The notes below the pieces were generated by a model, which was not told the origin of the DNA, made no database searches, and was given only the letters and a program-made list of their open reading frames with translations. A program made the translations under genes and the position numbers. 64,000 nt of DNA from Parapedobacter composti (GTDB taxonomy: Bacteria > Bacteroidota > Bacteroidia > Sphingobacteriales > Sphingobacteriaceae): positions 124,001 through 188,000 of the forward strand of contig NZ_FOLL01000007.1 of the NCBI RefSeq assembly GCF_900112315.1, given 5' to 3'. Below, one piece after another: positions 29,700 to 60,725 of this stretch (the first letter of the stretch is position 1; every line of letters starts with the position of its first letter).

Positions 29700-29730
29700 A
29701 ATACAAGTTTCAAGTGATTAGATTTATAAG

Positions 29731-29744
29731 TGTAAACGTTTACA
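29731..29744. promoter_or_regulatory. LacI-type operator at the exuT start site
   Basis: TGTAAACGTTTACA is a perfect CG-centred 14-bp palindrome, the usual form of LacI-family sites. It lies 6 bp downstream of the exuT -7 box, where RNA synthesis should begin, the position expected for a repressor. Confidence 0.75.
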
Positions 29745-29749
29745 ACTTC

Positions 29750-29757
29750 CAAATATA
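29750..29757 (-). promoter_or_regulatory. Predicted exuT -7 box
   Basis: TATATTTG on the minus strand, a full match to TAnnTTTG, 51 bp before the start codon at 29699. No clear -33 box. Confidence 0.55.
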
Positions 29758-29837
29758 GAAAGACTTGCTTAAATGCCATCCCTTTCTGTCCGAAATTCTT
29801 CGAAATCGTTTTCGTTGCCTGGGTTTCATGCTGCGCT

Positions 29838-31244: not shown

Positions 31245-31259
31245 GATTGTAAATCGGTG

Positions 31260-32741
31260 TTATTCGCTGAATGTTTGCGATGTTTCCTGTTGTTTAATCA
31301 GCTCCAGGGCGTTGCCTTCAAGCAATTGCCCCAGGCCGTGCTTCACCAAACCGGCAAATGCTTCCCATTGGCTCAGGTCGACGCCCCATAACGACTCGTT
31401 ACGCAGTACCGTATCCACCACTTGCCGGTGGTCGCCGCCATTCCAGGCATCCGCAAAATATCCGGCGTGCTCATCCTGGATGGCATACGGCTCCTCGCCC
31501 CCTGCGGCTGTACCCTTCATAAAGAGCAGGTAAGCCGAAAAACCCAGTGCCATGCGCTTCGGCGGTTGTTGCCGCCTATCGATGTACCGCTGCAAAAGCG
31601 CCACATTGCGCATCCGCATTTTGGAGGTAAAATTCATGCTGATGCTCAGCCAGCGGTGGTCGAGAAAAGGATTGCTGAACCGATCGATCACCGAATCAGC
31701 AAACGCCAGTGCTTCCCCTTCGCTGATCGGTCCGCCCACAATCGCTGGCACAATTTCCCGGCGCATCAGCTGGCTCACATACCGCGCAAACACCGCATCC
31801 TGCATCGCCTCTTTCACGGTGGTGAAACCGCACAATATGGCCAGTGCACAAGAAAACGTATGCGTTCCGTTCAGCAGCCGCAATTTCAGCTCCTTGAATT
31901 TCCGGATGTCCGGAGCGATTACCATACCCGCATCGGCCGCCGCAAAAGACAGCCGCCGGCGCACCCGCTCACTGTCGGCCTCAACCGCCCACAGCCGGAA
32001 CGGCTCGGCCATGATGGCAAGCTCATCGCGGTAACCCAACTGCGCTTCCTGCGCTGCGGCATCAGCTGGCGTTAGCTTACCCGGCACGATGCGATCCACC
32101 AGCGTATTGCAGAAATCACAAGCTTCTTCCAGCCATGCAGTAAATGCATCGCCCAGGTTATGCCGCTGCGCCAGCTGCAACACGATGTGTTTCAACTGGC
32201 TGCCGTTGTCGCTAATCAGTTCAGTGGGCAGTATCACCCAGCCCATTTCCGGATCGCCGTTGAAATGCCGGAAACGGTGGTAGAGCAATGCCGTCAGCTT
32301 ACCCGGAAACGAAGACGGCGGCGCCGCCCCGAGGTCATCTTTCTCGTCCAATACGATCCCCACCTCGGTCGTATTGGAGACAACCACGCTTACCTCCGGA
32401 CTAACCGCTACCTTTTTAATCTCTTCCCATTGGCTGGCCGCATGCAATACCCTGCTGATGGCCGATACCAGCATCCGCTCCTGCACCGCTTTGCCATGTT
32501 GCAGGCCCTTGATGTGCAGCGTATACAGTCCATCCTGCCGCTCAAACTCGTCAGTTGTGCCCTGGCCGGTTGATTTCACCACAACAATCCGGCCGTTGAA
32601 CAATCCCTGCCGGTTTGCTTGCTCGATAAAATAATCTGGCAATCCGCGCAGCAGCACCCCCGTGCCGAATTGCAGCACCTTCTCAGGCAGCTTTCCGGGC
32701 GTACCGTTTTCCAGCATACCCTTATTCAATATTTCCACCAT
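31260..32741 (-). CDS. uxaB: Tagaturonate reductase (altronate oxidoreductase)
   Basis: 493 residues from the ATG at 32741 (MVEILNKGML). The open frame extends 16 codons into the GH105 gene, which is unlikely to be used. It reduces tagaturonate to altronate with NADH. The N-terminal Rossmann region is VLQFGTGVLLRGLPDYFI. The mannitol-dehydrogenase-type C-terminal domain has the catalytic LKLRLLNGTHTFSCALAIL segment. The start lies 5 bp after the GH105 stop and the gene is directly followed by uxaC. Confidence 0.95.
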   Translation of the reverse strand: MVEILNKGMLENGTPGKLPEKVLQFGTGVLLRGLPDYFIEQANRQGLFNGRIVVVKSTGQGTTDEFERQDGLYTLHIKGLQHGKAVQERMLVSAISRVLHAASQWEEIKKVAVSPEVSVVVSNTTEVGIVLDEKDDLGAAPPSSFPGKLTALLYHRFRHFNGDPEMGWVILPTELISDNGSQLKHIVLQLAQRHNLGDAFTAWLEEACDFCNTLVDRIVPGKLTPADAAAQEAQLGYRDELAIMAEPFRLWAVEADSERVRRRLSFAAADAGMVIAPDIRKFKELKLRLLNGTHTFSCALAILCGFTTVKEAMQDAVFARYVSQLMRREIVPAIVGGPISEGEALAFADSVIDRFSNPFLDHRWLSISMNFTSKMRMRNVALLQRYIDRRQQPPKRMALGFSAYLLFMKGTAAGGEEPYAIQDEHAGYFADAWNGGDHRQVVDTVLRNESLWGVDLSQWEAFAGLVKHGLGQLLEGNALELIKQQETSQTFSE

Positions 32742-32746
32742 ATGGT

Positions 32747-34672
32747 TTATCGTTTTCCTTTCGCATTTGCCAGCAGCCACCGCACCCATGCTTCAGCAGC
32801 CTCGTAGTTTTCAAAATCCGGCGTGAGCTTGCGCCCGTCGATGTATTCGTTATATATCCAGGGGTCGCCCAGCGCAAATACGGTTCCCTTGCCGTACCTG
32901 GCCGTTGCCATCAGGGTTTTGCCTTCATGCTGGACGAGCGGCCGTGCCGGCGCAGTCAGTTCCAGCGTGCTCACTTCTTTCAGAAAAAGCCTGTAAGGCT
33001 TTCTGAATACACGGTTCCCGTTTTCCAATTGAACAGCTCCCTGCGGGAAATGGTCGTTTTTCACGAGCAGCTCATTATCCTCATTAAAGCGGATACCGAA
33101 TGTGCCTGCCAGCCGGTTAAAATGCGTAAACTCCGCATTCCCGGCATCGTTCCCCAACAGTACCAGCATACCGCCCCGGCGCACCCAGTCGGCGATGGCA
33201 TCGATTTCCGGCTGCTCCAGCACGTGTGGCGAGTCGGTTTCCTTATCCGTGTCGGGGTCAACGATGATATATACATCGGCACTGCTCAGTGCCGCGGCCC
33301 CCGGCCGGGTTTCCAGCGATACGGTGGCCGCCCCATAGCGGTTGAAAAGGTGCCCGAGAAACGAATACCCCCCGTTCGACTGATCTTCCCATATATAGTG
33401 GTAGCGCACACGCCTGCCCGTTGCTGCATCCTTGCGGTATTCGTTGTTGTAATAGTAATCGAGCACCACGGTCTTGCCGCGGCCGTGCCCGAGTGTCGGC
33501 AGCATTTCCATCTCTGCCGCACATTTGATGAATGCGCCCATCCCTTTCGGGTCGTTCTGAATCACCGGTTCGCTCATGTAATATTCAAAGCTGCCATCGC
33601 GGTACCGGCCCGTGCCACCAAGCCCTGAAACCATCACCGTGCCCTCGAGGTTGATGCCCCCGTCGTCGCGCTTGGAGATAAACGTTCTCAGGATACCCCG
33701 GTAACCCTTCCGGGCAGGCTTGAGGTAGCTGTCCGGCAGGTAGCCCAGGCGCACACCCTTGGCCAGCATATACACCAGCATACAGGAAGCCGACGCTTCG
33801 AGGTAATTCTCCGGGCGGTGCGCCATGTCCACCACATCATACCATACTCCCGAACGTTTGTCCTGGAAGGCAACCACCGCCTTGGCAAGGCGCTGCAGGA
33901 TGCCCGCGAGCGAATCAACGCCGGGGTGCCCCTCCGGAAAATGTTCAATGGCATCCACCAGCGCCATGCCGTACCAGCCCAGTGACCGCCCCCAGAAATT
34001 GGGCGACCGGCCCGTAACCTTGTCGGCCCATGCCTGTTCGCGGCTTTCGTCCCAGCCGTGGTACAGCAGCCCCGTCTTATCATCGCGGCTATGCCGCTCC
34101 ATCAGCACAAACTGGTTGGTGATGTCGTCAAACGCTTCCGGTTCGCCGAACACCTTTGCATACTCGGCATAGAATGGCTGCCCCATATACAACCCGTCCA
34201 GCCACATCTGATGCGGATATATTTTCTTATGCCAGAACCCGCCTTCCGACGTCCTCGGATGCGTGCGGAGCTGGTCGCGCAGCAGGGCCGCCGCCTTATA
34301 ATATTTCGTTTTGCCGGTTACCTGGTACAACAGCAGCAGCAGTTTACCGTTGTTGATAAAGTCGATATTGTAATCTTCGCGCTTATACGCCTTGATGCGG
34401 CCATCCTCCTGCACATAGTGATCCATTTGCTTTTGGATATAATCGAACCACCGGGCATCGCCCGACGCTTTCCATACCGCTTCCATGCCTTTGAGAATCA
34501 CCCCCAAATCATAGCTCCATTTCGCCGGCGTCCCCGGCTTTCCCAAGCTGAACGAGTCGGGCCATAATTTTACGGCCGTTTCCGCCAGCTGTTCGCTGTA
34601 CCGCGGTGGTTGCGCCTGGCTCCAGCCTGCCGAAATCAGCAGTATACTGCATAATAATAAGATATACTTCAT
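32747..34672 (-). CDS. GH105 unsaturated rhamnogalacturonyl hydrolase with C-terminal DUF4350/GATase-like domain
   Basis: 641 residues, longer than a plain GH105 (about 370). The signal peptide is 1-20 (LLISAGWSQAQ). The (alpha/alpha)6 GH105 domain covers about 25-390. The catalytic aspartate is D159 in HQMWLDGLYMGQPF, and YHGWDES follows. It hydrolyses the unsaturated galacturonyl end left by pectate or rhamnogalacturonan lyases. Residues about 400-640 form a second alpha/beta domain (ADVYIIVDPDTDKE, VRRGGMLVLLGND, LFALGDPWIYNEY) resembling the DUF4350 class I amidotransferase fold; its role is unknown. The start region is duplicated (see 34656-34689). ATG at 34672 begins the only long frame. 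Confidence 0.92.
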   Translation of the reverse strand: MKYILLLCSILLISAGWSQAQPPRYSEQLAETAVKLWPDSFSLGKPGTPAKWSYDLGVILKGMEAVWKASGDARWFDYIQKQMDHYVQEDGRIKAYKREDYNIDFINNGKLLLLLYQVTGKTKYYKAAALLRDQLRTHPRTSEGGFWHKKIYPHQMWLDGLYMGQPFYAEYAKVFGEPEAFDDITNQFVLMERHSRDDKTGLLYHGWDESREQAWADKVTGRSPNFWGRSLGWYGMALVDAIEHFPEGHPGVDSLAGILQRLAKAVVAFQDKRSGVWYDVVDMAHRPENYLEASASCMLVYMLAKGVRLGYLPDSYLKPARKGYRGILRTFISKRDDGGINLEGTVMVSGLGGTGRYRDGSFEYYMSEPVIQNDPKGMGAFIKCAAEMEMLPTLGHGRGKTVVLDYYYNNEYRKDAATGRRVRYHYIWEDQSNGGYSFLGHLFNRYGAATVSLETRPGAAALSSADVYIIVDPDTDKETDSPHVLEQPEIDAIADWVRRGGMLVLLGNDAGNAEFTHFNRLAGTFGIRFNEDNELLVKNDHFPQGAVQLENGNRVFRKPYRLFLKEVSTLELTAPARPLVQHEGKTLMATARYGKGTVFALGDPWIYNEYIDGRKLTPDFENYEAAEAWVRWLLANAKGKR

Positions 34673-34689
34673 AATAAGATATACTTCAT
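34656..34689 (-). repeat. 17-bp tandem duplication of the GH105 start region, creating a 6-codon mini-ORF
   Basis: On the minus strand the 17-bp unit ATGAAGTATATCTTATT occurs twice in tandem (34689-34673 and 34672-34656). The first ATG overlaps the GH28 stop as ATGA, but leads only to the hexapeptide MKYILL and a TGA at 34673-34671. That TGA again overlaps the second ATG (34672) as ATGA. The second copy starts the real GH105 frame, MKYILLLC. The duplication thus inserted a tiny ORF between two coupled genes while keeping an ATGA relay. Confidence 0.9.
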
Positions 34690-36350
34690 GGGTTAATTAA
34701 TTTAACATTGTTTTCATTGGCGCCGTAATCGGCTTTCAACTGTTTCTCCGCACGCCCCGTGTCGGTATTCCGTATCACCACGCCGTTGGTCCTTTCGCCT
34801 TGCGCATGGAGCAAGGTTGCTGCATGAGTACCATATGACAACCCGTCGACCAGCACGTTCCTGCCGTTGAGCACGTATAGCAATGGATCCGTTTCTGTGG
34901 CGTCAATGACCGATTGCTTGATGGTAATATCAGCACCCTCCTGAATATCGATACCCCCTGTTGTTTTCATCCGCAGTTCCGAAAAGTGGATGCCACGGAT
35001 AGGCATTTCCGGCAATCCGCGGATGAAGACCGCCTTCTTGGCACCGTCGCAATGGATATTGCTGATGTGGAAATTCCGGAACTGGGGCGTTTCTTCCGAT
35101 ACAGGCAGCGTCTCCACTTTCGGTGGCTGGCGCACCTCTCCCGCCGCCGGCACCGGGTCTTTAGCCTCGTAATACATATCAAACAGGATAGCCTCGCCGG
35201 GAATGTCTTTCATATAGATATTCCGGATGTGTACATCTTCCACGATCCCTCCCCGTCCGCGGGTGGTCTTGAAGCGCAGGCCGATGTCCGTACCGATAAA
35301 CGTCAAGTCAGACACGTAGAGGTTGCGCGCGCCCCCGCTCATCTCGCTGCCCACCACGAAGCCCCCATGAGCATGGAATACCGTGCAATTGCGCACCCAC
35401 AGGTTTTCCGTGGGCATGCCCAGCTTCCTTCCATGCGCATTTTTCCCGCTCTTCACGCAGATTGCATCATCGCCCACATCAAAGGAACTGCCTTCCACCA
35501 ACACGTTCGTGCACGACTCGATGTCCAGTCCGTCGCCGTTCTGCGAGTACCACGGGTTTCTAACCGTAATGTTGCGGATGGTGACATCCCGGCTCATCAG
35601 CGGATGGATGTTCCACGCCCCTGAGTTCTGGAAGGTCACCCCTTCCAGCAGGACCCGCTCACACCGCTCCAGCACCACCAGGTTGGGGCGCAGGAAATCC
35701 GCTATTTCTTCAAAGAACGCCGCCGTCTTGTCGGGCGTAATCAATCCCGCGTCCCGGTATTGCCTTCCCTTCAGTGCACTTGCTGTCGGGTACCATTCTT
35801 TGCCGTCCGGGGTCAGCACACCGCCGGAAGCAACCAGGTTTTTCCACTGCGATTCCGTCATCTTTCCTTTTTTCACGTAACGCCATGCATCACCGTTGCC
35901 GTCGATGATCCCTTCGCCGGTAATCGCGATGTCCCGCTGCCCCTCTGCCCGGATGGGCGAATGGCGCCTTACCTGCGGCAGCCCTTCCCACCAGGTTTCA
36001 ATCAACGGGTAATCCTCGAAATCCCGGGAAAACTGCAACAGCGCATTGCGCATCAGGTGCAGGTTAACCTTGCTTTTCAGCGACAGCGGGCCCGATGTCC
36101 ACACACCCCGGGGAATCAAAACCACGCCACCGCCCTGTTTATGGCAGGCGTCGATGGCCGACTGGATTGCCCCCGTGTTCAGGAAATCAGCGGCAGTTGA
36201 TGCCCCGAAATCGCGTATATCAAACGTATCCGTTTTGAAAACCGGCACCGGAATATCCGGTTCCGGCCACGTATCCCCGGTATGGCCGGCAGCGACCGCT
36301 CCGCTTGCCCAGCAGACGGCCGCAACGGCCACCCATCCTATTCTTCGCAT
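34686..36350 (-). CDS. GH28 polygalacturonase (secreted)
   Basis: 554 residues from the ATG at 36350 (MRRIGWVAVAA). An ATG at 36362 and a TTG at 36371 are also in frame, but the predicted -7 box at 36369-36376 favours 36350. The signal peptide is about 1-21. GH28 beta-helix motifs are complete: NGDGLD (N271, D273, D276), GDD (D294, D295), H328 in AHGG and RFK (R359, K361). It hydrolyses alpha-1,4-galacturonan, probably from chain ends, as larger Bacteroidota members do. It is the first gene of GH28-GH105-uxaB-uxaC, and its stop overlaps the GH105 mini-ORF start. Confidence 0.95.
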   Translation of the reverse strand: MRRIGWVAVAAVCWASGAVAAGHTGDTWPEPDIPVPVFKTDTFDIRDFGASTAADFLNTGAIQSAIDACHKQGGGVVLIPRGVWTSGPLSLKSKVNLHLMRNALLQFSRDFEDYPLIETWWEGLPQVRRHSPIRAEGQRDIAITGEGIIDGNGDAWRYVKKGKMTESQWKNLVASGGVLTPDGKEWYPTASALKGRQYRDAGLITPDKTAAFFEEIADFLRPNLVVLERCERVLLEGVTFQNSGAWNIHPLMSRDVTIRNITVRNPWYSQNGDGLDIESCTNVLVEGSSFDVGDDAICVKSGKNAHGRKLGMPTENLWVRNCTVFHAHGGFVVGSEMSGGARNLYVSDLTFIGTDIGLRFKTTRGRGGIVEDVHIRNIYMKDIPGEAILFDMYYEAKDPVPAAGEVRQPPKVETLPVSEETPQFRNFHISNIHCDGAKKAVFIRGLPEMPIRGIHFSELRMKTTGGIDIQEGADITIKQSVIDATETDPLLYVLNGRNVLVDGLSYGTHAATLLHAQGERTNGVVIRNTDTGRAEKQLKADYGANENNVKLINP

Positions 36351-36368
36351 CGTTCTTTGCATTTCCTG

Positions 36369-36398
36369 CAATTTTATTGTTATCCAATAAGCATCAAA
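36369..36398 (-). promoter_or_regulatory. Predicted promoter of GH28 operon
   Basis: Minus strand: TTTG (36398-36395), 18 bp, then TAAAATTG (36376-36369), one mismatch from TAnnTTTG. The first T of the -7 box is 57.5 bp from the centre of the operator at 36423. Confidence 0.6.
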
Positions 36399-36422: not shown

Positions 36423-36444
36423 GAATCGTTGCCGGAAACGATTC
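36423..36444. promoter_or_regulatory. CCGG-centred operator, site 1 (GH28 operon)
   Basis: Arms GAATCGTT and AACGATTC flank a CCGG core centred at 36433.5, with one mismatched pair (431/436). The half-sites AATCGTTGCCGG and AATCGTTTCCGG match the sites at 46668 and 60702. Confidence 0.8.
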
Positions 36445-40758: not shown

Positions 40759-42441
40759 TTATCTTGGATACCCCGGGTTCTGTTCAATTTGCGCTTCGTT
40801 GAGCGTAATAGCATCGATGGGAATAGGCCGGTACAGTTTATCCTGGCCATCCAGTCCGCGGAACGCCTGCTCCAGGCCGATCTGCCTGACATCGTAATTA
40901 TAGTGTCCTACAAACTCCTTCAGCTTCTTGGTGCGCCGCAGTTCCGGCCAGCGCAGGTATTCGCCAACAAATTCCTTTGCACTTTCAATGAGGTAAGCGT
41001 CGAGCGCTTCGCTTTGACTGGCGGCGCCAGCGATATCAAGGTTGGGACGCAACCGGCCTCCATCTTTCGCATTACCGGGCCTATCCAGCACCTGCTGCAC
41101 GTATTGCGCTGCCGTACCAAAATCATTCAGGCCTATGCAGGCCTCGGCATACAGGAAGTAAGTTTCCGCGAGCCGCGCAAGCACCACATCCCTCACACTG
41201 GCGGTCTGGCTGAAAACATGCCGGGTGACCGGACTGTCGAACTTCCGCACCACCGGCATGTGGAAATCCATCTCAAACGCAGCCCGGTAGGCTTCCTCAT
41301 CATATTTAAACGGGAAATACCGGAAATTGCTCGCTATCTGGTGCTCCTTGCCCTCAACCCAAGCCAGCGAGTCCGCCCTGGTAAACTCCCTTCCCCAAAC
41401 ACGCGGATAATAAGCCCGGATGGGGATCTGGGTTTTATCCTTACCCTGGTCATAATAATCGAAATATTGGTCGTATATGGTCAGCATAAACGTGGCCTCA
41501 TACCGCGCATCATTTTCCTGAAAGAAATTGTGCAGGTTCCAAGAAGGGAACAATGACGCGCTCATGTATTTATGATTAAGTTCAGCGCCACCCAAATAAG
41601 GCCCGAAAATACCCTGTTGCGCATTCCCGTCCTGTTCGGTTGCGATAGATCCTATGCTATATTGTACCGCAAAGATGACCTCCTCATTGTTGTCATTGTC
41701 CGGATGCCAGAGCGTCTCAAAGGGAATACTTATCGCTCTACCCCCTATTGCGTCGGCAGCATACTGCTTTGCACGCTGGAAATCTTCTTCATTCCCCAAG
41801 TCCCACGCCCGGGTCAAATATACTTTGGCCAAATAATGATTCGCTGCCGTTTTGTTCACCCGCGCCCTATCGTTGCCCAGGTCAGGGAGGGCAGCCTCCA
41901 TCTCCGTGATTACGAAATCGTACGAGGTTTCCAACGAAGCGCGCGGCAGATCCATACGGGCCGCCAAAGTCGGCTCGTTGTTGATGACAATGCCTCCGAA
42001 CTGTTCAATCAGCAGAAAATGATAAAAAGCCCTTAAAAAAGCAAATTCCGCCCGAAGCCGTGCCCGGGTCTGATCGTCAACTTCAGCCACATCGTTGTAG
42101 TATAGCCCAACGTTGGTAACCTGGATGGCATTATAGCAATTCCGGTAAAACGTAAGTACCGTTCCGTTATCGGGGAAGAGCTGCTCGTATTGCATCAATG
42201 GCCGCTCTGCAAAGCCCCGGGCCATGTTATACATGTCCGTGCCCGCAATTTGCAGCCAAGGTATCCCGCCAAATACGGTACGGAGGGTATTGTAAGCCGC
42301 CACCACCAACGTTTGGTAGCCCGCGGGCGTCCGGTAAAACTCATCGTTATTCGTTCCCCCTTTATTGTCTTCTTCCAAAAATTTCTCGCATCCGGACAGC
42401 GCAAACAGGCCGATAAACGCAAAAACAACTATCTTTTTCAT
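40759..42441 (-). CDS. SusD/RagB family outer-membrane lipoprotein (pair 1)
   Basis: 560 residues. The lipobox LFALSGC places the lipid at C18. The N-terminal SusD domain is helix-rich with TPR-like repeats (EFAFLRAFYHFLLIEQFGG), and the C-terminal RagB/SusD region ends LYRPIPIDAITLNEAQIEQNPGYP, a classic family ending. It forms the surface lid that delivers oligosaccharides to the SusC pore, here presumably pectic oligomers. It lies 22 bp after SusC 1. Confidence 0.96.
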   Translation of the reverse strand: MKKIVVFAFIGLFALSGCEKFLEEDNKGGTNNDEFYRTPAGYQTLVVAAYNTLRTVFGGIPWLQIAGTDMYNMARGFAERPLMQYEQLFPDNGTVLTFYRNCYNAIQVTNVGLYYNDVAEVDDQTRARLRAEFAFLRAFYHFLLIEQFGGIVINNEPTLAARMDLPRASLETSYDFVITEMEAALPDLGNDRARVNKTAANHYLAKVYLTRAWDLGNEEDFQRAKQYAADAIGGRAISIPFETLWHPDNDNNEEVIFAVQYSIGSIATEQDGNAQQGIFGPYLGGAELNHKYMSASLFPSWNLHNFFQENDARYEATFMLTIYDQYFDYYDQGKDKTQIPIRAYYPRVWGREFTRADSLAWVEGKEHQIASNFRYFPFKYDEEAYRAAFEMDFHMPVVRKFDSPVTRHVFSQTASVRDVVLARLAETYFLYAEACIGLNDFGTAAQYVQQVLDRPGNAKDGGRLRPNLDIAGAASQSEALDAYLIESAKEFVGEYLRWPELRRTKKLKEFVGHYNYDVRQIGLEQAFRGLDGQDKLYRPIPIDAITLNEAQIEQNPGYPR

Positions 42442-42463: not shown

Positions 42464-45400
42464 TTAAAATCTCACATTAAGCCCGAACTGATAAGTCACA
42501 TTGCTGGGCCCGTTTCCTTCAGCCAACGCCGTGGTGGCATATTCTGGATCCCATCCCGGATACTTGGTAAAAACAAACGGATTCAGTACATTCGCATATA
42601 CCCGCAGCTGTGACAATCCCCACTTACTGATGAGGGCGTCAGGCAACGAGTAACCCAGAATGATATTTCGCAGTTTCACGAAAGATGCATCCGTATACAT
42701 CCCGTTGTTACCATAGAACGGTCCCCTGTTTATATAGTGCGGATACCTGGCATTTTCGTTTCCTTCGCCGCTGGTTCCCCATGTCGCCTGCGGATTTCCG
42801 TCAGCGCTGGTTCCCCAGGTGGTCCAGTCATACCGCGTCACATTGGGTGGTATATAATAATCAAAGTTGATTTTCGGTCGGCCACGTTGGTTATTATGCG
42901 GGCCGAACTCTTCCAGGAAACGGTCAGCCACAAAGCTTCCCTGGCGGGCATAAAGGTTGAATGAAAAATCCCAGTTTTTAAACCGGATATTGGAAGTGAT
43001 ACTACCGGTCCAATCCGGATCCACACTTCCTAAAATAACACGGTCGTCGCCCGTAATGGCTCCGTTACCGTCAACATCCTGTGCGATTGCCTGCCCAGGC
43101 TGCTGGCCCCATTCCGCAGCTTCCGCCGCCTGATCCATCCGCCAGATACCGATAATACGGTAATCATAAATAACGTTGATGGGGTGCCCGATGAAACGTG
43201 CCTGGCCCGGTACATCCTCGCGTTTCCCATACAAGGTACGGATGGCGTTTTTGTTATGGGCAAATACCACTCCGGTTGTCCATTCAAATTGGTCTTTACG
43301 TATGTTCACGGTATTCAGTCCGACTTCCACTCCCCGGTTGTTTACGGAGCCAATGTTATCTGTCATCGAAGGCACGCCCGATTCAATGGCCAACGAGCGG
43401 TCCATCAGTAATTTGTCGGAAAGTTTATCGTACACATCCACGGTGCCGGAAATCCGCCCATTGAGCAGGCCAAAATCCAGGCCGAAATTCAGTTCGCGTG
43501 TCCGTTCCCACGTCAATACCGGGTTTACCGGCCTGCCGGGCATAAACCCGGAGACCGGGTCGTGTCCGAAATCATACCAGACAATCTGGTTGGTTGCCGG
43601 GGCCAGTTGAGCCGTAAACGGTTCGATGTTGTTATTCCCGGAGTAGCCGATACTGCCCCTCACCTTTAAATCAGACACCAAACTTCCTTGCATGAAATCC
43701 TCTTCTGATATCCGCCATGCCACAGCCGCCGAAGGGAAAGCCGACCACTTGTCCCTCAGCAGGGAACTGCCGTCGTACCGGATGGTGGCTGTCAGCAGGT
43801 ATTTGCCCCTGAAATCGTAATTGGCACGCGCCGCAAAAGACAGCAACGCTGATTCGGAATAGCTGGTTCCCATGGCGTCCTTAATGGTTTCGCCCGCAGC
43901 GATGTTATACCACCAGGATGGGTAAGGCAAGTTATTCGATCCCATACGGATACCTTCGAATCTCGTCTTATAGGCACTCTGTATCAACGAAACATTCAGG
44001 TTATGCGCACTGTTAAATGTTCTGGAATAGTTAACCACATTGTCCCACGTCCACTCAAAATCTTCACCATTGGTCTGGCGTGCCTGGTCTTGGTTCCGCT
44101 GGCCGGGCACCACGCCATAGTACGCGCCCGTACGCGTACGGTTCAAGCGCGGGTAAAACGTACTCCGGATACTCAGGCCATCCAGTGGCCGCAGTTCAGC
44201 GAAGATATTGCCCAGCACATCAAACCGCCTGATTTCTTCTGTACCACTGTTGATTTCGTTCAGCGGATTCGGTGAGCTGGTAAAGTTTCCAATTCCCTGT
44301 ATAGCTGCCGCAATGCCCGGCTGGGCAATTAGGTTCCCATTATCATCATACGCGTACAGAATAGGCGGCATCCGCAGAATATCACGGTATCCAAACTCAC
44401 TTCCCGAGTTGACAATCCCGTGAACCATATTTACACTGGCACCGGCAGAAAACCGGTCTGAAACCCGGTGTTCCACCGACAGTTTGACGTTGTAACGATT
44501 CAGGTTCTCGTTGATAAAATTACCTTCTTCGTTCTGATAGCCCACCCCAAGGTTGTAAGACAGTTTTTCCGTGCTTCCGCCTATACCGATGTAGTGATTC
44601 TGCTGCTGTCCGCTTTGGGTACCGAGCGCCAGCCAGTCCTCGTAGCGTTCCTCATACAGGCGCCTTTCCAGCAACGGACTTTGCTGCAAAATCACATTGG
44701 GGTTAGGCAGCACATACCGGCCGTCCCGGTATTCGTAAAACGCCGACGTCCGGAAATCCACCCATTCCCTTCCGTCCATGAAGTCAGGAATACGCGCAAG
44801 CGTCCTTACGCCATAAAATCCATCATATGTCACCGTGGTGCGCAGTGCACCGGGCGCCCCCGCGCCTTTCGTTTTTACGATAATCACGCCGTTGGATCCG
44901 CGTGAACCGTAGATAGCCGTCGAAGAAGCGTCTTTAAGCACGTCCATCTGCTCGATATCCGCGGGATTAAGGAAGTCGATATTATCGGTAACCACACCGT
45001 CCACCACGTAAAGCGGCGTACCTCCCTGTATTGAATTCTGCCCCCGGATCTGGATATTGAATCCGCCCCCCGGACGCGTGGACGTATTACTGATGTCTAC
45101 CCCCGCCACAGCCCCCTGCAAGGCCGCCATCGGCGAGGTGGTACCGCGTGCCAGCAAGGTTTCAGAGCCCACAGAGCCAACCGCACCAGTCAGGTCGCCC
45201 TTGCGCACCGTACCATACCCCACGGCCACCGCCTCGTCCAGCATGGCCGCTTCTTCGCCCTCCAGCACAATGTCCAGCACCTGCTGATCGCCCAGCGGCA
45301 CCTCCTGCGCTTTAAATCCCAGGTACCTAACTTCCAAAACCACGCCTTCCGACGCCGGAACAGCCAGGGTAAACGTTCCGTTCTCTGCAGTGCTGGTTCC

Positions 45401-45553
45401 CTGCGTTCCTCCGGCAACCCGTATACTTACCCCGCCAAGAGGTTCCCCCGCGGCATCGCGCACGGTTCCTTTTATTGACTTCGTCTGCCCAAAAACCCAA
45501 AGGGCTTGGCAAAGCGCAAACGTAATTAGACAAAGCTTCCTCATAGATATCAT
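42464..45553 (-). CDS. SusC/RagA TonB-dependent outer-membrane transporter (pair 1)
   Basis: 1029 residues. The signal peptide is about 4-23 (an ATG at codon 4, 45544, is an alternative start). The carboxypeptidase-like regulatory domain (about 26-100: GTVRDAAGEPLGGVSIRV), TonB-dependent plug (about 115-225: YGSRGSNGVIIVKTKG) and 22-strand barrel end in an aromatic residue (GLNVRF). It imports bound oligosaccharides with TonB energy. It follows the methylesterase gene by 13 bp and precedes SusD 1. The first pair is likely specific for one pectic fragment; which one cannot be read. Confidence 0.97.
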   Translation of the reverse strand: MISMRKLCLITFALCQALWVFGQTKSIKGTVRDAAGEPLGGVSIRVAGGTQGTSTAENGTFTLAVPASEGVVLEVRYLGFKAQEVPLGDQQVLDIVLEGEEAAMLDEAVAVGYGTVRKGDLTGAVGSVGSETLLARGTTSPMAALQGAVAGVDISNTSTRPGGGFNIQIRGQNSIQGGTPLYVVDGVVTDNIDFLNPADIEQMDVLKDASSTAIYGSRGSNGVIIVKTKGAGAPGALRTTVTYDGFYGVRTLARIPDFMDGREWVDFRTSAFYEYRDGRYVLPNPNVILQQSPLLERRLYEERYEDWLALGTQSGQQQNHYIGIGGSTEKLSYNLGVGYQNEEGNFINENLNRYNVKLSVEHRVSDRFSAGASVNMVHGIVNSGSEFGYRDILRMPPILYAYDDNGNLIAQPGIAAAIQGIGNFTSSPNPLNEINSGTEEIRRFDVLGNIFAELRPLDGLSIRSTFYPRLNRTRTGAYYGVVPGQRNQDQARQTNGEDFEWTWDNVVNYSRTFNSAHNLNVSLIQSAYKTRFEGIRMGSNNLPYPSWWYNIAAGETIKDAMGTSYSESALLSFAARANYDFRGKYLLTATIRYDGSSLLRDKWSAFPSAAVAWRISEEDFMQGSLVSDLKVRGSIGYSGNNNIEPFTAQLAPATNQIVWYDFGHDPVSGFMPGRPVNPVLTWERTRELNFGLDFGLLNGRISGTVDVYDKLSDKLLMDRSLAIESGVPSMTDNIGSVNNRGVEVGLNTVNIRKDQFEWTTGVVFAHNKNAIRTLYGKREDVPGQARFIGHPINVIYDYRIIGIWRMDQAAEAAEWGQQPGQAIAQDVDGNGAITGDDRVILGSVDPDWTGSITSNIRFKNWDFSFNLYARQGSFVADRFLEEFGPHNNQRGRPKINFDYYIPPNVTRYDWTTWGTSADGNPQATWGTSGEGNENARYPHYINRGPFYGNNGMYTDASFVKLRNIILGYSLPDALISKWGLSQLRVYANVLNPFVFTKYPGWDPEYATTALAEGNGPSNVTYQFGLNVRF

Positions 45554-45566
45554 ATTGTTGAATTGG

Positions 45567-46547
45567 TTATTTCTCTCCTCGGTGCACCGCTACGGGCACC
45601 CACCCGCGCAATACATGTTCAGCGGCATACACATCGGCCTGCCCGGTATCTGGCCTACTCATCCAACGCACCCGGTCAGTCACTGCTGCGCCCGCACCGG
45701 TGTTGCCGTGCTCTACATATTCAGCGGTGACTTCATTGATTTCCCTTCCCCAGTTGTGCCATCCTGCCGGATGGATGTGCCCTCCAAGCTCGCACCAGAC
45801 GAATGCCGTCTTCGCATAAGGCCGCCACGGCCGGCCGAGATATGCCGTTTTCACATCGTTGTCTGCGGTGAGCCGGCAGTTCCGGAAGACAAAGCCAAAA
45901 CGGGCTGTATCTGGGGTCGAAGCGGCTGTGATGTATGATCCTCCTGATTTACTATGAATCGTGCAAGCCTCAAAATAAGCCGTTGCCGCCCCGAAAATAA
46001 AGTCGGTCGTCCCCTCGATGTAACAGTTTTCATAATATTGCCGGCTCCCTGCCCGTTCGGGATAGAGCGTATCCTGATGCCCCAAAAAACGGCAGTTCCG
46101 GAAATAAACCCGGTCGGCGCTCACCCGCACCGCCACTGCCTGGCCAACAGGTCCGGCGCTGTTCTCAAAGGTGATATTTTCGGCATAGAAGCCGTCGCCA
46201 AAAACAAAGAAAGAAGCCGAACCTGACGTACCCATCGCTTCGCCGAACCGGTTCTTCCGGTCGGCGTAATCATCATAGGTCAATACCGTAGCCTTGGCGT
46301 CTTCTCCTATCAGGGAAACATTGGTTTTCGAAGACGGCAGCACCAACTTTTCGCGGTATACCCCCGGCCGGATACGGATAACCGTGCGCTGACGGCGCAT
46401 ATCCGGCACCGCCATCAGCGCTTCCTGCACCGAGCGGAAGTCACCCGTACCGTCCTGCGCTATCACCCATTCGGTAGTCTGCACGCCTGCGTCCAACCCC
46501 AATGGAATAAATAAAAAAACAAGGTAGAAACATTTCCAGTAGGACAT
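45567..46547 (-). CDS. Pectin methylesterase (CE8)
   Basis: 326 residues. The signal peptide is about 1-20. Right-handed beta-helix with all CE8 residues: Q136 (GPVGQAVAV), Q158 and D159 (GHQDTLY), D182 (TTDFIFG), and R/W of LGRPWRP. It removes methyl groups from homogalacturonan so lyases can cut. It is the first gene of the methylesterase-SusC-SusD-propeller-oxidoreductase-CE12 transcript. Its promoter (46612-46641) and the shared operator at 46668 lie in the divergent region with the GH43 gene. Confidence 0.96.
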   Translation of the reverse strand: MSYWKCFYLVFLFIPLGLDAGVQTTEWVIAQDGTGDFRSVQEALMAVPDMRRQRTVIRIRPGVYREKLVLPSSKTNVSLIGEDAKATVLTYDDYADRKNRFGEAMGTSGSASFFVFGDGFYAENITFENSAGPVGQAVAVRVSADRVYFRNCRFLGHQDTLYPERAGSRQYYENCYIEGTTDFIFGAATAYFEACTIHSKSGGSYITAASTPDTARFGFVFRNCRLTADNDVKTAYLGRPWRPYAKTAFVWCELGGHIHPAGWHNWGREINEVTAEYVEHGNTGAGAAVTDRVRWMSRPDTGQADVYAAEHVLRGWVPVAVHRGEK

Positions 46548-46611: not shown

Positions 46612-46641
46612 CAATTATAAGTGCATTCAGGCTTATCCAAA
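46612..46641 (-). promoter_or_regulatory. Predicted promoter of the CE8-SusC-SusD operon
   Basis: Minus strand: TTTG (46641-46638), 18 bp, then TATAATTG (46619-46612), one mismatch from TAnnTTTG. The -7 box starts 58.5 bp from the operator centre at 46677.5. Confidence 0.6.
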
Positions 46642-46667
46642 AGCATTGATCGGGGATAAATCTACGC

Positions 46668-46687
46668 AAACGATACCGGTATCGTTT
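46668..46687. promoter_or_regulatory. CCGG-centred operator, site 2 (shared divergent site)
   Basis: AAACGATACCGGTATCGTTT is a perfect 20-bp palindrome centred at 46677.5. It lies exactly midway between the -7 boxes of the two divergent transcripts (first T at 46619 and at 46736, 58.5 bp each way). Confidence 0.85.
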
Positions 46688-46735
46688 CCATATTTATTCG
46701 GCCACCAATTCCTTCCGATTTCCGATGGAACTCCT

Positions 46736-46743
46736 TATTCTTG
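46736..46743 (+). promoter_or_regulatory. Predicted -7 box of GH43-PL10 operon
   Basis: TATTCTTG differs from TAnnTTTG at one base. It lies 58.5 bp downstream of the site 2 centre and 40 bp before the GH43 start. The -33 region (TTCC) is poor, as expected for an activator-dependent promoter. Confidence 0.5.
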
Positions 46744-46783: not shown

Positions 46784-48436
46784 ATGAATAAACTGATGAT
46801 CACCGCAGGGCTTATCGCCCTTTGTTGCAGAACGCATGTCTATGCCCAGGCCCCAGCAGACCAGCAGCCGTCTGCGGTGTGGGTAGCCGACCGCGGCGAT
46901 GGCACCTATAAAAACCCCATTCTGCATGCCGATTATTCCGACCCCGATGTGGTTCGGGTAGGGCGCGATTATTACATGACCGCTTCCAGCTTTGATGCCG
47001 TCCCCGGCCTGCCTATCCTGCACTCCCATGATCTGGTCAACTGGACGCTCGTGGGCCATGCGCTGCGGCGCCAGCCGCCGTACGACCATTTCAGCAAGAC
47101 CCAGCATGGCAACGGTGTATGGGCACCATCCATCCGTTACCACAACGGCGAATATTACATTTTCTGGGGCGACCCGGATTTCGGCATATACCGCGTAAAG
47201 ACCAAAGACCCGCAGGGCGAATGGGAGCCGCCGGTGCTGCTGGAAAGCGTCAAGGGCATCATTGACGTATGCCCCCTGTGGGACGACGACGGGCAGGCCT
47301 ACATCGCATACGCCTATGCCGGAAGCCGGTCAGGCATCAAGAGTGTCATCGCCATCAAGCGTATGGATGCCGAGGCTACCCGCACGCTGGACGAAGGGAC
47401 AATCATTTATGACGGCCATGAACTGGATCCGACGATAGAAGGACCGAAATTCTACAAACATCAAGGATATTACTACATCTTTGCACCCGGCGGGGGCGTC
47501 GCCACCGGCTGGCAGACCGTGCTGCGCGCCAAGCAGATCTACGGGCCTTACGAACGCCGCATGGTGATGCACCAGGGCAGTACCGCCATCAATGGCCCCC
47601 ACCAGGGAGGCTGGGTAGATACGCCCACGGGCGAACACTGGTTTATCCATTTCCAGGACAAAGGTGTATACGGACGGGTCACCCACCTGCAGCCCATGGA
47701 ATGGCGGAGCGACGGCTGGCCGGTCATCGGCACCGACCGCGAAGGAACGGGCCGCGGCGAACCCGTGCTCACCCACCGGAAACCGGACGTAGGCAATACC
47801 TATCCGGTGGCCACACCTGCCGAGAACGACGAGTTCAATGGCATACGCATGGGGCTGCAATGGCAGTGGCAGGCCAACCCCCAGGCCACCTGGGCATTCT
47901 GCTATCCGGAAAAAGGCGTGTTGCGCCTGTACGCCCAGCAAATTCCCGAAGATAGCCGCAACCTCTATGAAACCCCCAATGTGCTGATGCAGAAGTTCCC
48001 CGCACCGGCATTCACAGCCACGGCGAAAGTCGAGTTCGCACCCCATCCCGATAAGGTACTGGGTGAGCGCGCCGGACTGGTCGTCATGGGTCGCAGTTAC
48101 GCCGCCCTCGCACTGCAGAAAGACCCCGACGGCCTCTCGCTGGTACAAGGCATCGCCAATGGAGCGCACCAAGGCAAGCCGGAAAACGAGCAAGTGATTA
48201 CCCGGTTAGAAAACGGTTCGTTGTATCTGCGTGTATCCGTGGAAGAAGGTGGCCTGTGCCGCTTTTATTACAGCACGGACGGCACCACATACCGTGAAGC
48301 CGGGAAGCCATTCCAAGCCGTTGAAGGGCATTGGATAGGCGCCAAGGTCGGCCTCTTCAGCACCCGCACAACCACGATAAACGATGCTGGATGGATGGAC
48401 GTGGATTGGTTCCGAGTAACCCCGTTATTACCATAA
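46784..48436 (+). CDS. GH43 family glycoside hydrolase with C-terminal beta-sandwich
   Basis: 550 residues from the ATG at 46784. The open frame extends 71 codons upstream, but that part contains the operator and no signal peptide, so it is non-coding. The signal peptide is about 1-22. Five-bladed GH43 domain (about 42-330): base D53 in YSDPDVV, D161 in IIDVCPLWDDDG, acid E219 in TIEGPKF. A C-terminal concanavalin-like domain (about 350-550) is as in beta-xylosidase/arabinofuranosidase members. It probably removes arabinose or xylose side chains of pectin. First gene of the divergent pair with PL10. Confidence 0.92.
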   Translation: MNKLMITAGLIALCCRTHVYAQAPADQQPSAVWVADRGDGTYKNPILHADYSDPDVVRVGRDYYMTASSFDAVPGLPILHSHDLVNWTLVGHALRRQPPYDHFSKTQHGNGVWAPSIRYHNGEYYIFWGDPDFGIYRVKTKDPQGEWEPPVLLESVKGIIDVCPLWDDDGQAYIAYAYAGSRSGIKSVIAIKRMDAEATRTLDEGTIIYDGHELDPTIEGPKFYKHQGYYYIFAPGGGVATGWQTVLRAKQIYGPYERRMVMHQGSTAINGPHQGGWVDTPTGEHWFIHFQDKGVYGRVTHLQPMEWRSDGWPVIGTDREGTGRGEPVLTHRKPDVGNTYPVATPAENDEFNGIRMGLQWQWQANPQATWAFCYPEKGVLRLYAQQIPEDSRNLYETPNVLMQKFPAPAFTATAKVEFAPHPDKVLGERAGLVVMGRSYAALALQKDPDGLSLVQGIANGAHQGKPENEQVITRLENGSLYLRVSVEEGGLCRFYYSTDGTTYREAGKPFQAVEGHWIGAKVGLFSTRTTTINDAGWMDVDWFRVTPLLP

Positions 48437-48443
48437 ACATACA

Positions 48444-49505
48444 ATGGCTACAACAAACAACGTACTTACGCGCCACCTTTGGCACATCATAACCGTACTT
48501 GCTGCGGCGATAGGCACCGCAGCGGCCCAGCCACCGGCAACAGACAGCATAGCTGAACGGATGCTGGTGCTCCAGCGCTCGTACGGCGGCTGGTCAAAAA
48601 CATTCAACGGCAAAGCTGCAGATTACCGCAAGCCGTTTGATGACGCCGCGCTCCGGCTGGCCGGGGAGCAAAAGGACGCCCGTGATGCCACCATTGACAA
48701 TGGTGCCACATCCAAGGAAATCACCTATCTATTGGATGCCTATCAGAAAACCGGCAACGCCCGGTACGCCGATGCCGCCAGGCGCGGGGTTGATTACCTG
48801 CTGGAGGCCCAGTACCCCGGCGGGGGGTGGCCCCAATACTATCCAGACGCCCGCCTGTACCGCTCGCAGATTACCTATAATGACGATGCCATCATCAACG
48901 TGCTGAACCTGCTGAAGGCCATCGCCGACGGCATCCATGGCGATGTGTTCGACACGGATTACCGCAAAAAAGCCCAGCATGCCGTTGACCGGGGCGTGCA
49001 GAATATCCTCGCCACGCAAGTGGTCATCAAAAAGCGAAAAACCATTTGGGCTGCCCAATACGACAAGGATACGCTAAAGCCCGCCACGGCGCGGGCCTAT
49101 GAGCTTCCCTCCCTGGCGACGTCGGAATCGGCCAACATCCTGATGTTCCTGATGGCGCTGGAACAACCCAGCGAAGCGGTAAAACAAGCCGTCCACAGCG
49201 GCGTACGCTGGTTTACGGAACACGATATCGAAGGATACACCACCAAAATCGTCGAAGCGCCGGAGCAACCCACCAAGAAAGACCGCGTATTGGTCGAAGC
49301 CCCCGGCGAAGTCATCTGGGCACGGTTCTACGATCTAAAAAAGCAGCGTCCCCTGTTCGCCGGCCGGGATGGCCGCCCCCGCAAACGGCTCGACCAAGTG
49401 GAAAACGAACGGCGGGTGGGCTACTCATGGTATGGCGGATGGGGCGATAAAGTGCTCAATCGTTACCGGAAATGGACTAAAGTACACGGTCCAGAAACCC
49501 CGTAA
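48444..49505 (+). CDS. Pectate lyase, family PL10
   Basis: 353 residues. The signal peptide is about 1-28 (GTAAAQ). PL10 hallmarks are GGWSKTFNG, DNGATSKEITYLLDAYQKTG, YPGGGWPQYYP, ITYNDDAIINVLNLL, and the C-terminal RRVGYSWYGGWGDK. It cleaves demethylated homogalacturonan by beta-elimination, giving unsaturated ends for GH105. It starts 7 bp after the GH43 gene. Its 3' end overlaps the convergent esterase-fusion gene by 29 bp. Confidence 0.95.
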   Translation: MATTNNVLTRHLWHIITVLAAAIGTAAAQPPATDSIAERMLVLQRSYGGWSKTFNGKAADYRKPFDDAALRLAGEQKDARDATIDNGATSKEITYLLDAYQKTGNARYADAARRGVDYLLEAQYPGGGWPQYYPDARLYRSQITYNDDAIINVLNLLKAIADGIHGDVFDTDYRKKAQHAVDRGVQNILATQVVIKKRKTIWAAQYDKDTLKPATARAYELPSLATSESANILMFLMALEQPSEAVKQAVHSGVRWFTEHDIEGYTTKIVEAPEQPTKKDRVLVEAPGEVIWARFYDLKKQRPLFAGRDGRPRKRLDQVENERRVGYSWYGGWGDKVLNRYRKWTKVHGPETP

Positions 49506-57325: not shown

Positions 57326-60300
57326 TTAAAATGTTACATTAATCCCTGCTAACATGTATCTGCTCCTCGGATAAGCGGCATAGTCTACCGCCGGCGTCAG
57401 CGGATTGTTCCGCCGGGTGTTTGCTTCCGGATCGTAACCGCTGTAACCGGTTATGGTCCACAGGTTATTTACCGTCGCGTATATCCGTACATTGGAAAAC
57501 ACCCGGGTACGGCGCAGGATGTCATGCGGCAACGAATAACCCAGGGTCAGGTTACTGATGCGTAGGAACGATCCATCCTCTATCGCATAGGAATGCAAGA
57601 AGTAAGGTCCACCGGGCGGCGTCCACATCGTCGTGTTCGCGTTCATGGCAGCAAGTGTTTCGGGGTCGGTTACCCGCACACCGTTATCATCAAACCAGCG
57701 CCAGCGGTCGTTCATTGTCGTCAGCATATTATTATCCCGATACAGGTATTGGGTAGTAAACTCTATCTTATTGGCATTATACACCTTGTTGCCCACAGAC
57801 CAGTTCAGGAAAATACTGAGGTCGAAGTTTTTGTAGGCAAATTGATGGTTCATTCCGCCGATGAATTTCGGCTGCGCATTACCCAGTATCGTCCGGTCGG
57901 TCGCATTAATCATCTGTTCGCCGTCATCGCTCAGCTTTTTCAGTTTCAAATCACCGGGTTGCGGGTCGCGGTTGCCCAATGCTACGTTGCGTGTGCTCGG
58001 CACTCCCGCTTTCAGCGTATAGGTCTGGTTGTTCGGGTTATAGTCGAAATCGTCCAAGGTATAAAACCCGTCTGTTACATAACCATAGAACTGACCGATG
58101 GGGCTGCCGACCTGCACGATGAAGTCTTCAAATTGGCTGCTCACCCAACCTGCACGCTCAAGATAAGAGGCCAACGGCCGTCCCTCGGAGTCCAATCCGA
58201 GACTTACGATCTTATTCCGGTTGAACGAAATATTGAATTGACTTTGGTAGGTGAAATTCCGGCTCTGTACCACCGTTCCGGCCAATTGGATTTCAAGCCC
58301 CCTGTTTTCTGTTTCTCCGATGTTTTTAAGCTGCGTGGCATAGCCGCTGGTAGCCGGAACCCGAGCCTGGAGCAGCAGGTCTTTAGTGCTGTTTTGATAG
58401 AGATCAACCGAACCGCTGATCCGGCCGTTCAGCACGGCAAAGTCTAAGCCCACGTTCCGGGATATCGTGGTTTCCCACCGCAAATCACTGTTCGCCAACG
58501 ACAACGGGGCAAATCCCGGTGTGATGCTCTCCCCATAGGCGTACGAATAATTGTTATGTACGCCGAACATGGTCTTGTACAGGTCGATACCAATACGGTT
58601 GTTGCCTACAGCGCCGTAGCTTAGCCGCAGTTTCAGGTCAGACAGCCAGTCGCGGGTACCTTCCATAAACGATTCTTCGGAGGCGCGCCAGGCAACAGCC
58701 ATCGACGGAAAGAACGCGTTCCGGTTTTCTTTTGCAAACAGCGAAGAGCCATCACGCCGCAATGTCACTGTGGCCATATACCGGTCGCCATAGCTGTAAT
58801 TAAACTGTCCGAAAAGGGAGAAAAGCCGGTGTTCAGACCAGTTGGTCGAAGGGGGCGTCTGGATCATGCCGTCGCCCGGTATGGCTTTCTGAATTCCCGC
58901 AAATGCTTCTTTTGGCGAAATGTCTACCGGAAGCCACTTCACCTCCATCGCCTGATTCTTGTTTTGGATTTGGTAGATTTCATGTCCAAGCATCGCTTGA
59001 ACACGGTGCTCGCCGAATTTCTTACGATAAGTTAATGTATTTGAGTTAGTCAACGCAAACGATTCACCGTTGCCCAAATTGACCACGGGCTGGTTGTTGT
59101 TCTGGCGGGCCACGCCAGTAGACACACCTGCAAACCGGTTATCTTTCCGTACGGTATGATGAATACCAAAATTACTGCTGGCAATCAGTTCGTCCGTAAG
59201 CTTGAAACGTGCATTACCATTGAAGATGATGTCGTCGCGGTACTGGTTACGTATTTCGTCGTTAGCCAGCACTACGGGGTTAACCAAGTTCGTCTGGTTG
59301 GCGAACTCCGGATCGAACTCATCTACAATCGCTTCCATCCCCGGCGCTATGAAAGGCATAAACCGCACCGCGTTGCGTAGCCGGTTGCTGCTTTGCGTAC
59401 CGGTGCTGGAAGTACCCACACCGTCTACCTGTTGCTTGCTGTACCGCGCGTTAAATCCAATATCCAGGCGGTTGCTCGCTTTATGGGTAAACTTCAGTGA
59501 AGCCAATGTGCGCTGGAATCCGGAATTAAGCATAATCCCTTCTTCGTCGGTGTGGTTCAGGTTGAAGTTGAACGATGTTTTATCCGTGCCGCCCACTAAT
59601 CCCACGATATGGGACTGGTTACGCGCGTGCCGCCCGAACACGGCGTCCTGCCAGTCCACGAACGGCATATCCCGGTACAGTTCCAGGTCTTCCCAACGGC
59701 CATAGCGGTCGCGGAAGGCATTACGGGTTTGTTCATCGGTATTCAGGTTATAGGCCTGATACTGATACCTCACGTAGTCGTAAGGTTGCATGACATTCAG
59801 TCGGTTGGTGATGGTTCTTACCCCACCGAACCCATTGTAAGTTACCTGGGTTTTCATGTCCATCCCCCCTTTGGTCGTAATGATCACCACCCCGTTTGCA
59901 CCACGTGCCCCGTAAATAGCCGTAGACGCTGCATCCTTCAATACGTCTATCGATTCTATTTCCTGCGGCGACAGGATAGATAATGCATTTTCGACCTGAA
60001 TGCCGTCGACGATATAGAGCGGCGAATTGTCTTGGGTAATGGAGCCGCCTCCGCGCACGCGGATCTGGACTTCTGCTCCTGGGGCGCCTTCCGTGGTCAC
60101 CACCCTTACCCCGGCCAACCGGCCGGTGATGGCTTCGGCTGCCGAGCTCAACGGGATGTCTTTCAGTTGTCTGGCGTTAACTGACGAAACAGCGCTCGTT
60201 AGATCACGCCGGCTCACCGTGGAGTAGCCGATGGCCACGGCCTCTTCCAGCAGGCTCTCTTCTACCTCCAAAGCAACATCTACCGTCTGTCCCTCCGCAG

Positions 60301-60556
60301 CAGTTTTCTCCTGGGCTCTATAGCCCATGTAGCGGAATACCAGGGTAACTTCCGAACGGCCCTGTGGAAGTTGGAGTCGGTATCGGCCCGCGTCGTCGGT
60401 TTGTGCGGTCACCCCCGTCTCCTTCACTGACACGTTTACACCGGCAATCCCTCGTTGTGTGGCCTGATCGATCACCGTGCCGCTCACCACACCCTGCCCG
60501 TAGCTTTTATGGCTGGCAATCAGCAGCGTAAAAATCAACAGTACATAATACCTCAT
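57326..60556 (-). CDS. SusC/RagA TonB-dependent outer-membrane transporter (pair 2)
   Basis: 1076 residues. The signal peptide is 1-20 (LIASHKSYGQ). It has a carboxypeptidase-like regulatory domain (about 22-100), a plug with SVNARQLKDIPLSSAAEAITG and YGARGANGVVIITTKGG, and a barrel ending MLAGINVTF. It is distinct from SusC 1, so it probably takes a different pectic fragment. It heads the operon SusC-SusD-DUF5123-PL1-unknown-esterase fusion, under the operator at 60702. Confidence 0.97.
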   Translation of the reverse strand: MRYYVLLIFTLLIASHKSYGQGVVSGTVIDQATQRGIAGVNVSVKETGVTAQTDDAGRYRLQLPQGRSEVTLVFRYMGYRAQEKTAAEGQTVDVALEVEESLLEEAVAIGYSTVSRRDLTSAVSSVNARQLKDIPLSSAAEAITGRLAGVRVVTTEGAPGAEVQIRVRGGGSITQDNSPLYIVDGIQVENALSILSPQEIESIDVLKDAASTAIYGARGANGVVIITTKGGMDMKTQVTYNGFGGVRTITNRLNVMQPYDYVRYQYQAYNLNTDEQTRNAFRDRYGRWEDLELYRDMPFVDWQDAVFGRHARNQSHIVGLVGGTDKTSFNFNLNHTDEEGIMLNSGFQRTLASLKFTHKASNRLDIGFNARYSKQQVDGVGTSSTGTQSSNRLRNAVRFMPFIAPGMEAIVDEFDPEFANQTNLVNPVVLANDEIRNQYRDDIIFNGNARFKLTDELIASSNFGIHHTVRKDNRFAGVSTGVARQNNNQPVVNLGNGESFALTNSNTLTYRKKFGEHRVQAMLGHEIYQIQNKNQAMEVKWLPVDISPKEAFAGIQKAIPGDGMIQTPPSTNWSEHRLFSLFGQFNYSYGDRYMATVTLRRDGSSLFAKENRNAFFPSMAVAWRASEESFMEGTRDWLSDLKLRLSYGAVGNNRIGIDLYKTMFGVHNNYSYAYGESITPGFAPLSLANSDLRWETTISRNVGLDFAVLNGRISGSVDLYQNSTKDLLLQARVPATSGYATQLKNIGETENRGLEIQLAGTVVQSRNFTYQSQFNISFNRNKIVSLGLDSEGRPLASYLERAGWVSSQFEDFIVQVGSPIGQFYGYVTDGFYTLDDFDYNPNNQTYTLKAGVPSTRNVALGNRDPQPGDLKLKKLSDDGEQMINATDRTILGNAQPKFIGGMNHQFAYKNFDLSIFLNWSVGNKVYNANKIEFTTQYLYRDNNMLTTMNDRWRWFDDNGVRVTDPETLAAMNANTTMWTPPGGPYFLHSYAIEDGSFLRISNLTLGYSLPHDILRRTRVFSNVRIYATVNNLWTITGYSGYDPEANTRRNNPLTPAVDYAAYPRSRYMLAGINVTF

Positions 60557-60647: not shown

Positions 60648-60655
60648 CAATTTTA
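60648..60655 (-). promoter_or_regulatory. Predicted -7 box of SusCD 2 operon
   Basis: TAAAATTG on the minus strand, identical to the GH28 -7 box. Its first T is 58.5 bp from the site 3 centre. No proper -33 box is present (ATTG at 15 bp). Leader about 85 nt. Confidence 0.55.
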
Positions 60656-60701: not shown

Positions 60702-60725
60702 GCAATCGATACCGGCAACGATTGC
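60702..60725. promoter_or_regulatory. CCGG-centred operator, site 3 (SusCD 2)
   Basis: GCAATCG and CGATTGC arms surround a CCGG core centred at 60713.5, with two mismatched pairs inside. Half-sites AATCGATACCGG and AATCGTTGCCGG match sites 1 and 2. The rest of the 247-bp gap 60557-60803 shows no gene. Confidence 0.78.

Follow-up and report, generated by a model that had tools for sequence, protein, structure and literature searches.

Two pectin operons of Parapedobacter composti, one opening with a CE8 pectinesterase followed by SusC/SusD genes and the other with GH43 and PL10 genes, diverge from a gap that holds a palindrome, and this arrangement raises the question of whether a single bound regulator could act on both promoters, and in which direction. 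The initial annotation had placed a perfect 20-bp palindrome at 46668–46687 of the window (the whole 64-kb stretch of DNA that was analysed), centred at 46677.5, with -7-like boxes starting at 46619 on the minus strand and 46736 on the plus strand, at equal offsets of 58.5 bp from that centre. Both observations were confirmed, and the palindrome reads AAACGATACCGGTATCGTTT. In the counting convention used below, 58.5 bp from centre to box start corresponds to 58 nt between the operator centre and the first base of the box. The features of the gap and its flanking genes are as follows; orthologous boxes are those of the sister species Parapedobacter luteus (G004), G007 and G008.

40759–42441, minus strand: SusD-like protein, minus operon
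42464–45553, minus strand: SusC-like TonB-dependent receptor, minus operon
45567–46547, minus strand: pectinesterase (CE8), gene 1 of the minus operon (Pfam PF01095)
46612–46619, minus strand: -7 box TATAATTG of the CE8-SusCD promoter, 58 nt to the operator centre; orthologous boxes in G004, G007 and G008
46663–46677, minus strand: operator half-site toward the CE8-SusCD promoter, GGTATCGTTTGCGTA; exact match to the regulon half-site
46668–46687, no strand: shared operator AAACGATACCGGTATCGTTT, perfect palindrome with central CG; near-identical sites in relatives
46678–46692, plus strand: operator half-site toward the GH43-PL10 promoter, GGTATCGTTTCCATA; outer part weaker
46736–46743, plus strand: -7 box TATTCTTG of the GH43-PL10 promoter, 58 nt to the operator centre; orthologous boxes in G004, G007 and G008
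46784–48436, plus strand: GH43 glycoside hydrolase, gene 1 of the plus operon (Pfam PF04616/PF17851)
48444–49505, plus strand: pectate lyase, PL10 type (PF09492)

The palindrome was unique in the window even with three mismatches allowed, and shuffled sequence contained none. LacI-family operators are typically even palindromes of 16–22 nt with a central CG, according to the accessible text of PMC4052901; the site found here is a perfect palindrome of 20 nt with a CG pair at its centre (...ACCGGT...). The outer part of the plus-side half-site, CCATA, is poor.

Operator-to-promoter spacing in relatives

The search for the half-site GGTAWCGWTTGCGYA, with at most one mismatch, covered nine genomes of the genus together with sequence pieces retrieved from relatives; the box played no part in selection. 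Among 96 half-site matches in the genus set, a TAnnnTTG box lay at 57 nt 21 times and at 58 nt 12 times, and at no other distance from 15 to 160 nt did such a box occur more than twice. Loci fetched only for their regulator gene gave 12 boxes at 57 nt and five at 58 nt (25 half-sites). A set of 77 regulator-homologue loci from other genera, including Pedobacter, Mucilaginibacter, Olivibacter, Niastella, Flavisolibacter and Chitinophaga, gave 38 and 20 boxes, respectively, among 82 half-sites; some of these loci are closely related, and the counts therefore do not represent independent events. The reversed control of this set contained no half-sites. In the genus set, the spacers between operator and box had a median identity of 0.30; they are unrelated in sequence, and what is conserved is thus their length. 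Sites located almost exclusively 57 or 58 nt from the box have the fixed site-to-promoter distance that characterizes class I activators. When the exact pattern at 57 nt was searched in 395 genomes of the class, matches fell mainly in two families (f1 and f36), and the few scattered elsewhere may be due to chance.

The expectation that the spacing would be kept in related genomes held for the distance itself, which is 57 or 58 nt across the regulon, but not for the single shared operator, which is not conserved in the genus. In P. luteus and G007 each of these two promoters has an operator to itself, at separations of 43 and 73 bp between the operators, some of which have one degenerate half. 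The divergent gap of G008 contains a lyase-like gene (L039, 5940–7619), and each side of the gap has a complete operator of its own. A single shared operator as the genus-wide state is ruled out by the two sites in these three sister species. Their GH43-side boxes are TATCCTTG in both P. luteus and G007 and TAATCTTG in G008, the CE8-side boxes are TATACTTG, TATACTTG and TATAATTG in the same order, and each has an operator half-site of its own at a distance of 57 or 58 nt, which supports both boxes of the window. When the three divergent gaps were aligned with MAFFT, the -7 boxes came out of register, and the alignment was set aside.

The shared arrangement recurs in the Olivibacter group, where G067 and G022 have a single operator between a SusC operon and an esterase–GH43–PL10 operon, with boxes at 58/57 and 57/58 nt. 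The proposal that one site serves both operons gains from this recurrence and from the presence of both window boxes at the regulon spacing, and at the sequence level a shared site positioned to act on both operons is supported. The exact midway position from which the proposal had started is meaningless on its own, however: an operator would come to lie near the middle because each promoter needs an operator centre 57–58 nt away and both use the same one.

Regulon members and the candidate regulator

Three operators serve four promoters in the window. The two beyond the shared palindrome, with their boxes, are:

36369–36376, minus strand: -7 box TAAAATTG, 57 nt from the third operator, upstream of the GH28-GH88/105-mannitol_dh-UxaC-MFS run (28254–36371)
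36424–36443, no strand: third operator AATCGTTGCC/GGAAACGATT, weaker, one-sided
60648–60655, minus strand: -7 box TAAAATTG, 58 nt from the second operator, upstream of the second SusCD operon (57326–60556)
60704–60723, no strand: second operator AATCGATACC/GGCAACGATT, one-sided

A model for operator–box units, trained with this genome left out, scored 47.1 at 60713 minus (second SusCD operon), 45.7 at 46677 minus, 35.3 at 36433 minus (the run from GH28 to UxaC and the MFS carrier) and 32.8 at 46678 plus, whereas the next-ranked window match scored 10.7 and the best null, from the reversed window, 12.7. A chance palindrome or chance boxes are ruled out by the uniqueness of the palindrome in the window, the spacing counts and these scores against nulls. 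Upstream of the second SusCD operon, the minus strand holds two long ORFs (60804–62972 and 62979–63980) with no Pfam or PADLOC match; PADLOC returned no match for four unassigned window proteins.

Elsewhere in this genome there are two further near-copies of the palindrome. On contig C39 (L066, ~9040–9059), another operator, with a box at 57 nt, stands upstream of a run encoding an MGH1-like hydrolase, GH28 and GH95, and is likely a further member of the regulon. One of the two near-copies, AATCGATACCGGTATCGATT, sits ~110 bp upstream of a LacI-family gene on contig C23 (26433–27437), whose product has the LacI DNA-binding domain and the periplasmic-binding-protein-like sugar domain of that family (PF00356, 45.9 bits; PF00532; PF13377) and reached no equivalog cut-off in NCBIfam. 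Neither side of the operator next to the regulator gene (contig C23, L065 10310–10329) carries a TAnnnTTG box at 57 or 58 nt, a difference from its counterparts in relatives.

Homologues of this protein with 62–87% identity adjoin similar sites and pectin or uronate genes in P. luteus, in the two Olivibacter-group genomes and in G024 and G011. Across 151 genomes of the family, spaced sites averaged 2.76 per genome where a close regulator homologue was present and 0.41 where it was absent, and the reversed pattern gave 0.23 and 0.18, respectively; in the class sample, close homologues were confined to a few families. Around the other LacI paralogues of this genome, a search of nearby central-CG palindromes did not find the 57/58 pattern. 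Gene neighbourhood and co-occurrence thus point to the LacI-family protein as the likely regulator acting at the palindrome. The operons that carry sites encode CE8, SusC/D, GH43, PL10, GH28 and UxaB, and the sites at the UxaB, GH28, CE8 and PL10 operons match the control of galacturonate/glucuronate genes by which UxaR/KdgR regulators are recognized.

Promoter strength and the direction of control

The -7 consensus of Bacteroidota is TAnnTTTG (PMC12632263), and TATAATTG and TATTCTTG each depart from it at one position, the fifth base, so that neither is perfect. In 91 distinct operator-linked units from relatives, chosen only for TA and TTG, this base was always A or C; linked boxes have the form TAnn[A/C]TTG, including those of the window at 46612–46619, 46736–46743, 60648–60655 and 36369–36376. 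Under a looser site definition, and counting only boxes upstream of ORFs, T stood at the fifth base in 1/60 linked boxes compared with 97/179 others (Fisher p = 2e-15). The -33 region of linked promoters had a weak T-rich trend only and no strong -33 element.

Rigid spacing, an operator near -70, unrelated spacers, off-consensus -7 boxes and a weak -33 region together argue for activation through contact with RNA polymerase. In the mechanism that we consider probable, the palindrome is the predicted binding site of a UxaR/KdgR-like LacI-family protein that controls the use of pectin and galacturonate. Judging from the positions of the boxes, the centre of the bound dimer would lie ~69–70 bp upstream of each transcription start; the dimer could offer one subunit to each flank, and the regulator, like a class I activator, would recruit or assist RNA polymerase at the weak, off-consensus promoter on either side. 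A pectin breakdown product probably promotes its binding or activity. The fixed distance, which recurs beside a LacI-type regulator gene in dozens of related bacteria, suggests that this protein, of a 'repressor family', switches pectin genes on.

The regulator's own promoter had no fixed distance to the operator in the loci first examined. In six loci (L320, L325, L329, L331, L332 and L335; ~2887–2901), this promoter has a consensus box 58 nt from the operator. Such loci are a few from Pedobacter and Chitinophagaceae, the promoter faces the poorer half-site, and the configuration may represent autorepression. It speaks against the activation reading, as do the poor outer part of the plus-side half-site and the operator next to the regulator gene, which lacks a box at 57 or 58 nt in this genome.

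The main rival to activation is contact repression of the GalR type with the same geometry, in which the regulator would repress by touching polymerase from the same upstream position and pectin products would release it. Fixed spacing is compatible with this reading too, the regulator's own consensus promoter at 58 nt in some Pedobacter loci fits it, and the accessible text of PMC4052901 describes sugar-use LacI-family regulators mostly as repressors. The linked promoters, however, rarely carry the consensus -7 base and show no strong -33, so they are expected to need help rather than restraint, and we regard contact repression as rather unlikely.

Readings that do away with polymerase contact, or with service to both promoters, fare worse. 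Steric repression, by an operator that obstructs polymerase or forms a loop with a second site, is the best-known mode of the LacI family, but the palindrome lies well upstream of both boxes, a second 20-bp site is absent from the window at up to three mismatches, and a site that blocks or loops has no need of a spacing that stays constant to within one base in two families; we hold it to be highly improbable. The poor outer part of the GH43-facing half-site could mean that the operator serves the CE8-SusCD promoter only and that the second box at 58 nt is a coincidence, yet we estimate the chance of a box at that exact place at about 1 in several hundred, and in the three sister species the GH43 promoter is paired with an operator half-site of its own at 57 nt, which makes it a regulon member. 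Service to the CE8-SusCD promoter alone is the least probable of these readings. Beyond this locus, we lean slightly towards the view that activation as proposed here would be general: a LacI-family protein, held at a rigid upstream position, would be a dedicated activator of pectin loci across Sphingobacteriaceae and Chitinophagaceae, and one symmetric dimer could engage polymerases on both sides.

Comparison with known systems

A literature search for LacI-family activators in Bacteroidota found none, and no report was found of a LacI-family system that works at a fixed distance in these families and apparently activates; journal coverage was incomplete in both cases. UxaR, KdgR and UxuR are LacI-family uronate regulators of Bacteroides that were predicted by comparative genomics, as described in the accessible text of PMC3878776 and PMC4052901. 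They resemble the system described here in protein family, in their uronate genes and in a palindromic operator with a central CG, and they differ in that the same accessible text describes no activator role, fixed distance or shared divergent operator. The SusC/SusD polysaccharide loci of Bacteroides are controlled by SusR, hybrid two-component systems and ECF sigma factors, according to the accessible part of PMC3878776; control of SusC/SusD genes is common to all, but those are membrane-linked sensors, whereas the regulator proposed here is a one-component LacI-type protein.

For most polysaccharide loci in Bacteroidota, the accepted explanation is SusR, a hybrid two-component system or an ECF sigma factor. 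If true, a one-component LacI-type activator whose distance to the promoter is fixed to within one base would be a simple and predictable switch, with operators, promoters and target genes that could be read directly from sequence in many genera. The same divergent pair occurs naturally with one operator and with two, which provides a ready test of whether one dimer can serve two promoters.

Class I activation is known from CRP at -61.5 and -71.5 and from CcpA at ackA. The likeness lies in a fixed-distance upstream site, a weak promoter and, as proposed here, polymerase contact; the proteins are different, and here the promoter is of the Bacteroidota -7/-33 type and two distances one base apart are permitted. 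GalR at gal P1 is a LacI-family dimer that contacts polymerase from ~60 bp upstream. Its geometry is alike, but the outcome there is repression, whereas the weak promoters of the pectin operons suggest activation.
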